From Ralstonia sp. TCR112 (lineage in GTDB: Bacteria > Pseudomonadota > Gammaproteobacteria > Burkholderiales > Burkholderiaceae), in the NCBI RefSeq assembly GCF_007997035.1, contig NZ_VOSS01000094.1, positions 1-56,159 of the forward strand: 56,159 nt of DNA, in the 5' to 3' direction. The position numbers and the translations under genes were made by a program. The notes under the pieces were generated by a model that was not told the DNA's origin, ran no database searches, and saw only the letters and a program-made list of their open reading frames with translations. How positions within the stretch are numbered: position 1 is the first letter of the stretch; every line of letters starts with the position of its first letter. This document shows positions 50,756-53,800 of this stretch, one piece after another.

Positions 50756-53398
50756 GTGCCCATGGTGAAGGTGAAGACCTCCGCGAAGGCCGGTTCCAAG
50801 GCCAGTCCTGCTTCTGATTCTGCCAAGCGATCCTCATCGGCGCGCGGCTCGGGGGGAGGAAAGACTTCAGCGGGAACGGCGAAAGTCGCGAATGGTCGGA
50901 CTCATGTGGGGCAGGCGGGATCGACAGGAGTGAAGGCCACTGCGCCGGCAAAGACGGGGAAAACCCAGCCGCGCCAGACCGCCGATATCGCCGTCGCCGC
51001 CAAGACTGTCAAACCGACAGCGCGCACAAAGGGCGCGATCCAATCTTCAACCTCAGGCAAGGTCTCGACGTCGATGAGCACGAGCGCCAGACCTGGCGGC
51101 ACAGCCGCTTCCGTCGCACTCAAGGGCAAGACAACCACCGTGGCGAAATCGAAAGTTACCGAAGTCGAGAGCAAGCAGACCACTGCCAGCGCAAGCGCAA
51201 CCAAGACGGGTACCGCTCGTACCAGCACCGCAGCCAAGCCAGCCAAGGCAACCGCGGAAGACACCAAGCGCACCGCCCAGGCAGGGGCCACCCCCACAAC
51301 TCCTCCCGCGCCCCGCGCCGAGGCCGCAGCCGAGCCCAAGAAGCGCGGCCGCAAGCCCAAGGCAGAGACGCAGGCAGACGATGACAGCAGCACGGACGTG
51401 ACTGAAGAATTTGACACCCCCGCCGCTCCGGCACCGAAAACCGAAAAGCTGAAGGCCCGTGACCGCAAGGCCAAGGAAAAAGCCCTGCTCAAGGAATTCG
51501 CTGCTTCGCAGCAAGGCGGTTCGGAAGAAGAGCTCGAGGCCCGCCGCCAGAAGCTCAAGGCGCTGATCAAGCTGGGCAAATCGCGCGGCTACCTGACCTA
51601 CGCTGAAATCAACGACCACCTCCCCGACGACATGGTCGACGTGGAGTCGATGGAAACGTTGGTTGCCACGCTCAACGACATCGGCGTTGCCGTGTACGAG
51701 CAGGCTCCGGACGCCGAAACGCTGCTCCTGAACGACAACGCGCCTTCCGTGACCACGGAAGAAGAGGCTGAAGAAGAAGCCGAAGCTGCGCTGTCGACGG
51801 TTGACTCCGAATTCGGCCGCACGACCGACCCGGTGCGCATGTACATGCGCGAAATGGGCACGGTCGAGCTGCTCACGCGCGAAGGCGAAATCGAAATCGC
51901 CAAGCGCATCGAGGCCGGCCTGAAAGACATGGTCATGGCCATCTCGGCCTGCCCGGTCACCATTTCGGAAATCCTCGCCATGGGCGAGCGCGTGGCCAAC
52001 GATGAATCCAAGATCGACGAATTCATCGACGGCCTGATCGACCCGAACGCTGAAGCCGAGGCCGCTGCTGCCGCCGAGGAAGAAGAGGAGTTCGAGGAAG
52101 AAGAAGCCGAAGAAGAAGGCGACGAAGAGGAAGACGAGGACGATGAAGGTGCCGGTGCTGCCGCAGCCTCGGCCCGTCAACTCGAAGAGCTCAAGCAGGC
52201 TGCGCTGGTCAAGTTTGGTGTGATCGGCGAGCAGTTCGACAAGATGCGCCGTGCCTTCGAGAAGGAAGGCTACAAGTCCAAGCCTTACGTGAAGGCGCAG
52301 GAAGCCATCCAGGCCGAGCTGATGACGATCCGCTTTACGGCACGCAACGTCGAGCGGCTGTGCGACACGCTGCGCGGCCAGGTGGACGAAGTGCGCAAGC
52401 TTGAGCGTGCCATCCTGAACATCGTGGTCGACAAGTGCGGCATGCCGCGCGGCGATTTCGTTGCGCGCTTCCCGGGCAACGAGACGAACCTGAAGTGGAT
52501 TGAAACCGTGGTGGCTGACGGCAAGCCGTACAGCACCATCGTCGAGCGTAACGTGCCGGCCGTGCACGAACTGCAGCAAAAGCTGATCGACCTGCAAGCG
52601 CGCGTGGTGCTGCCGCTGACCGAGCTGAAGGACGTCAACCGCAAGATGTCGGAAGGCGAGCGCCGCGCCCGTGAGGCCAAGCGCGAGATGACCGAGGCCA
52701 ACCTGCGTCTGGTGATCTCGATCGCCAAGAAGTACACGAACCGCGGTCTGCAGTTCCTCGACCTGATCCAGGAAGGCAACATCGGCCTGATGAAGGCGGT
52801 GGACAAGTTCGAATACCGTCGCGGCTACAAGTTCTCGACGTACGCCACGTGGTGGATCCGTCAGGCCATTACGCGTTCGATCGCCGACCAGGCGCGCACC
52901 ATCCGTATTCCGGTGCACATGATCGAGACGATCAACAAGATGAACCGCATCTCGCGTCAGATCCTGCAGGAAACCGGTAACGAACCGGATCCGGCAACGC
53001 TGGCCGAGAAGATGGAGATGCCGGAAGACAAGATCCGCAAGATCATGAAGATCGCGAAGGAGCCGATCTCCATGGAAACGCCGATCGGTGACGACGACGA
53101 TTCCCATCTGGGCGACTTCATCGAGGATACGAACACGCTGGCCCCGGCCGAAGCAGCGCTGCATGGCTCCATGCGCGGTGTGGTGAAGGACGTGCTCGAT
53201 TCGCTGACGCCGCGCGAAGCCAAGGTGCTGCGCATGCGCTTCGGTATCGAAATGAGCACTGACCACACGCTGGAAGAAGTCGGCAAGCAGTTCGACGTGA
53301 CCCGCGAGCGTATCCGTCAGATCGAGGCGAAGGCACTGCGCAAGCTGCGCCATCCGAGCCGCTCCGACAAGCTGAAGAGCTTCCTCGAGGGAAGCTGA
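50756..53398 (+). CDS. rpoD: RNA polymerase primary sigma factor (sigma-70)
   Basis: An 880-residue principal sigma factor. Residues about 1-215 are a low-complexity Lys/Ala/Ser/Thr extension ending in an AT-hook-like KKRGRKPK; region 1.1 follows ([20 protein letters not shown]). The non-conserved region has a run of about 30 mostly acidic residues. Regions 2-4 are intact: [40 protein letters not shown], and the -35-recognising helix [26 protein letters not shown] stands 5 nt before GTG 50756 and 11 nt before ATG 50762; I prefer the GTG. Two hairpins and a tRNA follow. Confidence 0.96.
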
Positions 53399-53423
53399 TT
53401 CTAGCGAGGCAGGCGATTTTCCG

Positions 53424-53493
53424 AGTGGGCTTGCGCCCACTTTCGGGTAAAATCCCGCACCAGGCCCGGCCTAAGCGCCGGGTCTCTTTTTTT
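53424..53493 (+). terminator. Hairpin pair between rpoD and the tRNA gene
   Basis: AGTGGGC-TTGC-GCCCACT (53424-53441, T-poor tail) is followed by TAAAAT at 53447-53452 and then a stronger hairpin: GGCCCGGC (53463-53470) with GCCGGGTC (53477-53484), loop CTAAGC, and TCTTTTTTT to 53493. The second is a good intrinsic terminator, ending only 11 nt before the tRNA. Confidence 0.8.
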
Positions 53494-53504
53494 CCTGTTT
53501 GACA

Positions 53505-53592
53505 GGGCCGGACGCCGTGCTGGTTGCAGGCAGCGGACTCATAATCCGCCTCCGAAAGGACACCGTGGGTTCGAATCCCACCCGGCCCACCA
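53505..53592 (+). tRNA. tRNA with anticodon CAU and long (class II) variable arm
   Basis: An 88-nt tRNA with encoded CCA. Acceptor GGGCCGG/CCGGCCC (53505-53511, 53582-53588); 3-bp D-stem GCC/GGC with GG in the loop; anticodon stem GCGGA/TCCGC with loop CTCATAA, anticodon CAT at 53540-53542; variable region 53550-53564 of 15 nt containing TCC-GAAA-GGA; T-arm GTGGG-TTCGAAT-CCCAC; discriminator A. G1-C72 excludes the initiator. CAU means elongator Met or, if C34 becomes lysidine, Ile2 reading AUA; the position beside rpoD recalls E. coli ileX. A long variable arm is usual for Leu, Ser and Tyr, not for these isotypes. Position 8 is A, not U. Confidence 0.93.
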
Positions 53593-53800
53593 TCTTTTGC
53601 TCCCCCGCCTTTTCCCTCGGTTCATCCGCGTTTGCGTGCCCATGGCACATGGCCGTCTTCTGTTCGTTAGCGCGCGTTATTGTTCGGGATCGTATTTTGC
53701 TACGCCTGCGGTTTTCGGCGAAATATATTCATTTCGACATATTTGAATAACGTCTCAGTGCGTAAGCTTTCCCCCAATTGGAGGGGGGAGTTTAAAACGC

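Follow-up and report, generated by a model that had tools for sequence, protein, structure and literature searches.

The window analysed here (56,159 nt of DNA from Ralstonia sp. TCR112) contains, next to rpoD, a real and conserved class II tRNA gene that, judged from its sequence and surroundings, is very probably a tRNA-Ile2 and has, in several genera, taken the place behind rpoD that otherwise belongs to a class I tRNA-Ile2. In bacteria, a long variable arm is treated as a mark of leucine, serine, tyrosine and selenocysteine tRNAs; the description of tRNA classes taken from PMC7609411 lists Ser, Leu, Tyr and Sec tRNAs as class II, with a variable region of at least 10 nt. We consider it highly probable that the class II gene serves as the tRNA-Ile2 of its Ralstonia genome. 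It would be expressed, TilS would convert its C34 to lysidine, IleRS would charge it with isoleucine, and the charged tRNA would read AUA, a rare isoleucine codon, on a class II body with a 15-nt variable arm and an unusual D arm. At the rpoD locus the gene would have taken over from a normal class I tRNA-Ile2, having probably arrived by horizontal transfer on megaplasmids or islands.

An initial annotation had described a class II-shaped tRNA with a CAU anticodon beside rpoD, with a 3-bp D stem and a 15-nt variable region containing a 3-bp stem. All of these features were borne out by the analysis, and the elements of the locus are as follows.
53505–53592, + strand: class II tRNA with anticodon CAU, a probable tRNA-Ile2 with encoded CCA (ARAGORN, Rfam RF00005, fold, 31 distinct family sequences).
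53514–53531, + strand: D arm with a 3-bp stem, 10-12/25-27 along the gene, and a possible extension, 14-16/22-24, across a bulged G13 (fold, pair counts).
53540–53542, + strand: anticodon CAT (CAU) in the loop CTCATAA (sequence, ARAGORN).
53550–53564, + strand: 15-nt variable region, made up of C, a 3-bp stem (53551-53553/53558-53560) around a GAAA loop, and then CACC (fold, compensatory change).
53462–53494, + strand: terminator-like hairpin followed by a T run, between rpoD and the tRNA (terminator scan).
51442–53398, + strand: the portion of rpoD that aligns with other genera, with the tRNA downstream (blastn, protein search).

ARAGORN called the 88-nt gene at exactly 53505–53592 on the + strand and named it tRNA-Met (cat). 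Rfam RF00005 scored it at 46.7 bits (cut-off 29; E 7.1e-7) with the variable region left as an insertion, and no covariance model gave a 5-nt variable loop. The lowest-energy unconstrained RNA fold was the class II cloverleaf (−42.6 kcal/mol, z −3.23; none of 200 shuffles was as good), with stems of 7 bp (acceptor), 3 bp (D), 5 bp (anticodon), 3 bp (variable, UCC/GGA) and 5 bp (T). The stem-bearing variable region of 15 nt thus exceeds the 10 nt that define class II; the acceptor-T branch is 7/5, not the 8/4 or 9/3 of allo-tRNAs, and the class I body with a 5-nt variable loop that is usual for tRNA-Ile2, a feature that we judged non-defining, is absent. A swap of the U8-A14 pair had also been proposed. 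A8 and U14 themselves are invariant in the family described below, while their pairing with each other is one of two alternative readings, because the fold adds the pairs 14-16/22-24 (numbered along the gene) across the bulged G13. U14 may therefore pair with A24 along the gene (position 22 in tRNA numbering, by our own count) rather than with A8, which would extend the D stem; support for this extension is one-sided, since the only change is that one of its pairs is U-G instead of C-G in 14 of the 31 sequences. Upstream of the tRNA, the last 132 codons of rpoD found their best protein match at 100% in Ralstonia and at 93–98% in other genera. The interval 53300–53800 holds four terminator-like sites, against a mean of 0.9 in shuffles, and one of these hairpins lies directly upstream of the tRNA; this hairpin and the lack of a sigma-70-like promoter match in the same interval count against the proposed role as tRNA-Ile2.

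The family was represented by 31 distinct 88-nt sequences, including that of the window, drawn from 105 occurrences at partly overlapping loci, so that their number is not a count of genomes; the collecting pattern was of fixed length and required CTCATAA, and interrupted class II genes fall outside it. A8, U14, G15, C48 (the C before the T stem) and A73 are invariant in all 31 sequences, and positions 1–30 also show few changes. The variable stem pairs in 31/31 sequences and occurs as UCC/GGA (16 sequences), GGA/UCC (13), GGG/UCC (1) and UCA/UGA (1), with compensatory, two-sided change at all three of its pairs, although only a few events may lie behind the swap of the entire stem. Two-sided change was also found at one anticodon-stem pair and one T-stem pair. 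Over the whole structure, 99.8% of the cells are paired, 57 cells changed on both sides and the covariation score is 0.201, values none of which was reached by any of 500 shuffles; slid controls paired in 32–50%. Two of the five measures were ordinary, the count of pairs with two-sided change being reached by 223 of the 500 shuffles and that of further pair types by 342, and all these shuffle statistics ignore the relatedness of the sequences.

The initial annotation had tied its proposal to conservation in related genomes, which was found. Of 398 Burkholderiaceae genomes, an even draw from a larger group, 81 matched the gene at E<=1e-9, 80 of them near full length and one, G509, over positions 32–88 only. 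The matches fall in 4 of 25 genera: by our own count Ralstonia (10 genomes), Paraburkholderia (48), Trinickia (7) and Cupriavidus (16, including G509). The window is 95% identical over 6.8 kb to Ralstonia sp. UNC404CL21Col; the rpoD locus of G335 matches Trinickia dabaoshanensis at 91% and three Paraburkholderia at 87–88%, Trinickia being the less sure genus assignment. Blastn against 300 genomes of the order yielded many short T-arm matches and full-length, high-identity matches only in the genome itself and in G237, a member of the family. When a covariance model of the family was run against 369 genomes of the class, the window scored 117.6 bits and the other matches among those listed at most 64.1 bits; the 19 best of these others that we fetched were all tRNA-Leu. 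A contig scan returned at least 17 full class II family genes among the 80 listed of 119 stretches. Many of its Verrucomicrobia matches resemble tmRNA 3′ ends, and its archaeal matches resemble intron-holding tRNA-Met genes; both assignments are our own reading. No near-full copy was present among 76 records of a phage collection, the best being 84% covered at 78%. Class II-shaped CAT tRNAs of different sequence occur sporadically in other bacteria, outside the family (L225, L234, L243, L252, L253 and L258), and four of these six, scored with the family model, reached 35–52 bits compared with 117.6 bits for the window. Two other CAT tRNA-like sequences with long variable regions, L134 (genome G307) and L135 (genome G659, contig C5), are likewise distinct from the family.

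Comparison of the locus downstream of rpoD, which the initial annotation had proposed, revealed two kinds of occupant. The position following rpoD in Ralstonia, Paraburkholderia and Trinickia is taken either by the class II tRNA or by a class I tRNA-Ile2 that is intact or interrupted by a group-I-like intron. Among 21 rpoD loci, the class II gene was present in 10 and a class I tRNA-Ile2 in 9; ARAGORN detected no tRNA in the other 2. Nineteen further loci, 18 from genomes without class II matches and one from G304 again, comprised 6 with a 76-nt class I gene, 12 with a class I gene whose anticodon loop is split and 1 with none. The 16 Ralstonia genomes include 10 with the class II gene, 4 with a 79-nt class I gene at 100%, 1 with a 76-nt class I gene (G448) and G441, whose rpoD was not found in the search. 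Within this genus, the slot holds the class II gene in G000 and G317 and the class I gene in G377 and G434; G434 resembles G000 and G317 on both flanks of the tRNA, and G377 resembles them clearly on the upstream flank only. In all 11 sampled Paraburkholderia without the class II gene, the slot contained a class I tRNA-Ile2 whose anticodon loop is interrupted. The four sampled Trinickia that lack the class II gene had the 76-nt class I gene (3) or an interrupted one (1, G404). The interrupted loci are L440-L445, L447-L451 and L453, 11 from Paraburkholderia and 1 from Trinickia. Three of these 12, one of them from Trinickia, were compared with the group I intron family RF00028 and matched at 30.4–31.9 bits, below the cut-off of 50 (E 4e-5 to 1e-4); the insert appears to be a group-I-like intron that scores below the Rfam cut-off. 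The genome of the window gave no group I intron match at E<=1, a search in which an intron could be missed, given that even the interrupted genes of relatives reach no more than about 31 bits. Over the 86 genomes of the three genera (16 Ralstonia, 59 Paraburkholderia and 11 Trinickia), 65 have the class II gene and 20 a class I form, with G441 assigned to neither. Adjacency of the class II gene to rpoD was seen for part of these, namely 9 loci of the three genera and 15 named loci by blastn, and the class I genes of G403 and G427 are known by similarity only.

Service as either Ile2 or Met had been suggested initially, and Ile2 is favoured over Met because relatives carry class I tRNA-Ile2 in the same slot. 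We then consider which tRNAs could read AUA. The genome of the window has 41 tRNA matches, three of them with CAT: the class II gene, L015 (elongator Met) and L020 (initiator-like). The standard tRNA-Ile(CAU) whose presence elsewhere in the genome had been raised as a question is not among these 41, in an assembly that lacks some expected tRNAs. Neither was another tRNA-Ile2 found in the Ralstonia genomes G317, G357 and G419 (2–3 contigs each). A 79-nt class I query had no match at E<=1e-7 in the ten Ralstonia class II genomes (two candidates scored per genome); the same query detects the 76-nt class I gene of G448, a form that the CAT-tRNA search pattern misses, at 9.6e-12. A pattern search for tRNA-Ile(UAU) found none in 14 genomes (12 class II, 2 class I; 5 of the 10 Ralstonia class II genomes were covered), and Ile(GAT) was present in 14/14; a TTATAA match in G419 is not an Ile tRNA by our own reading. 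TilS scored above the cut-off in 30/30 genomes. As far as these searches reach, the class II gene is the only putative AUA reader found in the Ralstonia class II genomes, with tilS present, and by their labels these genomes seem to have no AUA reader, because ARAGORN labels the class II gene tRNA-Met. The function of the tRNA is, on gene content, strongly implied. Elsewhere the picture differs by genus. The class II genomes of Paraburkholderia and Trinickia gave weak class I matches (~1e-9 to 1e-12), and since known 76-nt class I genes score only 3e-9 to 1e-11, much like these, a further 76-nt class I tRNA-Ile2 may lie elsewhere in them; G537 and G668 gave a second, stronger class I match (6.6e-23 and 1.4e-25). 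Among the Cupriavidus genomes with a near-full class II gene, 14 of 15 also hold a class I gene (~1e-29 or better), so there the class II gene is usually an extra copy.

We also examined the residues that AUA codons face in related proteins, comparing the window and the class II genome G317 with G434, G264 and G288, and, as a control, the class I genome G434 with G317, G264 and G288; ORFs were filtered by overlap and GC3. The window, with 10 AUA codons in 42 genes, gave 13 comparisons (9 Ile, 2 Val, 1 Ser and 1 Thr). In G317 (400 kb around rpoD, L350-L369, 171 genes), 47 AUA codons gave 39 comparisons (21 Ile, 7 Met, 4 Val, 3 Thr, 2 Ser, 1 Pro and 1 Arg), and the control gave 42, with 23 Ile, 8 Val, 4 Leu and 1 Met among others. 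Ile thus accounts for 30 of the 52 pooled comparisons of the window and G317, and since it leads in both the class II and the class I comparison, AUA behaves as an isoleucine codon in both kinds of genome. Met was faced in 7/39 comparisons in G317 and in 1/42 in the control, an excess that weighs against the tRNA-Ile2 reading, though on small numbers.

The strongest rival explanation is that the gene encodes an extra elongator tRNA-Met: TilS would be inactive on the class II body, C34 would stay unmodified, MetRS would charge the tRNA and AUG would be read. The ARAGORN name agrees with this, and PMC12514573, in the part used here, describes unmodified tRNA-Ile2 being charged by MetRS in some species; the seven Met residues in the G317 comparisons might be counted on the same side, yet a tRNA with unmodified CAU would read AUG, not AUA. 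On the other hand, the same elongator-Met-like sequence as L015 is present in 20/20 genomes, the slot belongs to tRNA-Ile2 and not to tRNA-Met, and the ten Ralstonia genomes would be left without any AUA reader that we found (UAU having been looked for in five). Moreover, the same part of PMC12514573 reports that B. cenocepacia MetRS prefers tRNA-Met about 600-fold over tRNA-Ile2. We therefore regard service as a tRNA-Met as improbable.

We asked where the class II gene might have come from. Among the tRNAs of its own genome (L001-L040) and two class I tRNA-Ile2 genes, the best pairwise score was obtained with the class I tRNA-Ile2 of G116 (genus g3; L161), at 72%; this gene also lies at the rpoD locus, has acceptor stem and T arm identical to those of the window's tRNA and shares its A8, but is 77 nt long with a 5-nt variable loop and a 4-bp D stem. 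The class II gene thus resembles a modified tRNA-Ile2 more than a modified tRNA-Leu. A tRNA-Leu(CAA) ancestor with a new anticodon (67% identity, a score below that of the G116 gene) was considered and not preferred. The 10 Ralstonia class II genomes group together with support (99/96) in a 30-row TilS protein tree, well apart from the Paraburkholderia-Trinickia branch, although the tree has long branches; the simplest reading is therefore a single replacement event among the Ralstonia genomes sampled.

Several observations connect the gene with mobile DNA. Ten plasmid records matched it, 9 from Cupriavidus at full length (2 of them pHG1 of C. necator H16) and 1 from Paraburkholderia partially, and 7 of the 10 are typed as conjugative; Cupriavidus thus has class II copies on megaplasmids such as pHG1 as well. 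In G520 (L307-L309), the exception among the 15 Cupriavidus genomes with a near-full class II gene, rpoD is followed by the 5′ part of a class I tRNA-Ile2 up to CTCATAAT, then by about 190 nt and a class II gene with the same sequence as that of the window; the remaining 3′ part of the class I tRNA-Ile2 lies 47.6 kb beyond this class II gene. A 48-kb island thus splits the class I gene in its anticodon loop, the crossover being marked by 9 common bases, ACTCATAAT. No whole 79-nt class I gene was found in G520, where the best class I match was 4.4e-14, and another contig bears a second class II variant. Defence-like genes are present on the island, with matches to DISARM/BREX-type helicase and methylase, and an ORF near the island's far end looks like a recombinase but matched no Pfam family. 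Islander islands, as outlined in the portion of PMC4383910 consulted, likewise cross over in tRNA anticodon loops and use a fragment to make the split gene whole again. The G520 island, by contrast, does not mend the class I gene, and the full-length tRNA gene on it is a different one, of class II. It hints at one way in which an essential tRNA gene can come to be replaced.

The class II gene also serves as a target for other elements: several genomes have 3′ parts of it, close to full copies or away from them, and a 27.6-kb circular record of Paraburkholderia sp. SOS3 carries tRNA positions 31–88 at 100% (L305, 3314–3371) next to a tyrosine recombinase, an arrangement that fits an excised element targeting this tRNA gene. 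These same data, along with the lack of a sigma-70-like promoter match in 53300–53800, could be taken to mean that the gene is a non-functional relic, a tRNA-shaped integrase attachment site, with AUA decoded by something that we missed. Such a relic would not be expected to show compensatory change in three stems or to have so few changes at positions 1–30 too, and the gene is the sole AUA candidate found in the Ralstonia class II genomes; we think it very unlikely that the gene is a relic. Returning to the gene as a tRNA-Ile2, we offer one extension tentatively and would not be surprised to see it fail: plasmids and islands may carry the class II tRNA-Ile2 as a spare or replacement AUA tRNA, with at least one island breaking the anticodon loop of the host's tRNA-Ile2 and supplying the class II gene; hosts of Ralstonia, Paraburkholderia and Trinickia may have kept the element's tRNA in the rpoD slot; and the long arm and odd D arm may let the tRNA persist alongside group I introns and similar parasites of the class I gene, or survive them.

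The nucleotides expected to be read by TilS and IleRS were compared with published determinants. According to the passages of PMC12514573 on TilS, the E. coli enzyme uses C4:G69 and C5:G68, and for the B. cenocepacia enzyme G3:C70 and the D loop matter. In the class II family, G3:C70 and C4:G69 are present in 31/31 sequences and C5:G68 in 28/31 (U5:G68 in the other 3), and the D loop of the class II gene, TGCTGGTT, resembles that of class I, TGCTTGGTT. The CAU anticodon with A37 and A38 occurs in 31/31, as the collecting pattern required CTCATAA; A73 is the discriminator in 31/31, and G51:C63 is found in 21/31. The Ile elements named in the part of PMC9976931 used here include A73, C4-G69, 12-23 and 29-41. 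The class II gene keeps A73 and C4-G69 but not the other two: the pair 12:23 is C12:G23 in place of the U12:A23 of class I, and 29:41 is G:C and not the C:G of E. coli, as is also the case in the Ralstonia class I gene. PMC9976931 also lists A15-U48 and A20a as E. coli Leu elements, for which the family has G15-C48 and, in 30/31 sequences, U at 20a, together with the CAU anticodon; the body is predicted to repel LeuRS and SerRS, and the missing Leu elements would, we infer, keep LeuRS off. The family also departs from tRNA-Ser and tRNA-Sec, with A73 in place of G73, a 7/5 branch and CAU. Bacterial tRNA-Sec has an 8/5 acceptor-T branch and a UCA anticodon. The idea that the class II shape leads to charging with leucine or serine, with AUA reassigned or misread, can draw on that shape, on A73 as in tRNA-Leu and on the 19 tRNA-Leu loci fetched from the class-wide model search, but AUA sites face Leu in 0/52 and Ser in 3/52 comparisons, the E. 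coli Leu elements are replaced and A73 stands instead of the G73 of serine tRNAs, which makes it the least probable explanation of all.

The class II gene can be set beside known tRNAs. The tRNA-Ile2 of B. cenocepacia, studied in PMC10128029 and PMC12514573 to the extent that we drew on them, is of class I. Its class resembles the class II gene in the rpoD locus in relatives, the CAU anticodon and the loop CTCATAA, in G3:C70, C4:G69, C5:G68 (28/31), G51:C63 (21/31) and A73, and in a similar D-loop run, TGC(T)TGGTT. In Ralstonia, the class I gene has a 5-nt variable loop and a 4-bp D stem, whereas the class II gene has a 15-nt arm, a 3-bp D stem with its possible extension, A8 and U14. The B. 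cenocepacia determinants fit the class I gene of relatives, and it is with that gene, not the B. cenocepacia gene itself, that likeness was judged. Bacterial tRNA-Leu, -Ser, -Tyr and -Sec share the long variable arm, with tRNA-Leu nearest in score among the fetched matches of the class-wide search; they differ in the anticodon and at positions 8, 14, 15-48 and 20a, and the class II tRNA-Ile2 is without G73 and has the 7/5 branch. The available portion of PMC8450103 describes group I introns that interrupt tRNA-Ile2 genes in Acidovorax and Burkholderia, as well as some misclassification between Met and Ile2. These introns sit in class I genes and resemble the split genes found here in relatives (the same gene and the same loop, at 12 of 19 rpoD loci), and our class II collection, with its fixed-length pattern, would miss interrupted genes. 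No class II tRNA-Ile2 appears in that portion of PMC8450103, and our literature searches, mostly of open-access papers, turned up no account of a class II tRNA-Ile from bacteria.

If a class II tRNA does serve isoleucine, TilS, IleRS, EF-Tu and the ribosome would accept this shape, and LeuRS and SerRS would reject it for other reasons. The case therefore tests how far the shape of a tRNA limits the amino acid loaded onto it, and related strains with a class I or a class II gene at one locus amount to a natural swap experiment.

Three other tRNA genes of the same genome deserve mention. L020 (contig C232, 1498–1572) is a 75-nt CAT tRNA with the loop TTCATAC and a GGG/CCC anticodon stem; the ordinary fMet sequence of relatives was not found in this assembly by the CAT-tRNA pattern search. 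L040 (198–274) is a tRNA with an irregular anticodon loop to which ARAGORN gave no name, and L039 (201–276) is a further tRNA-Cys(GCA) with the end TCCA.
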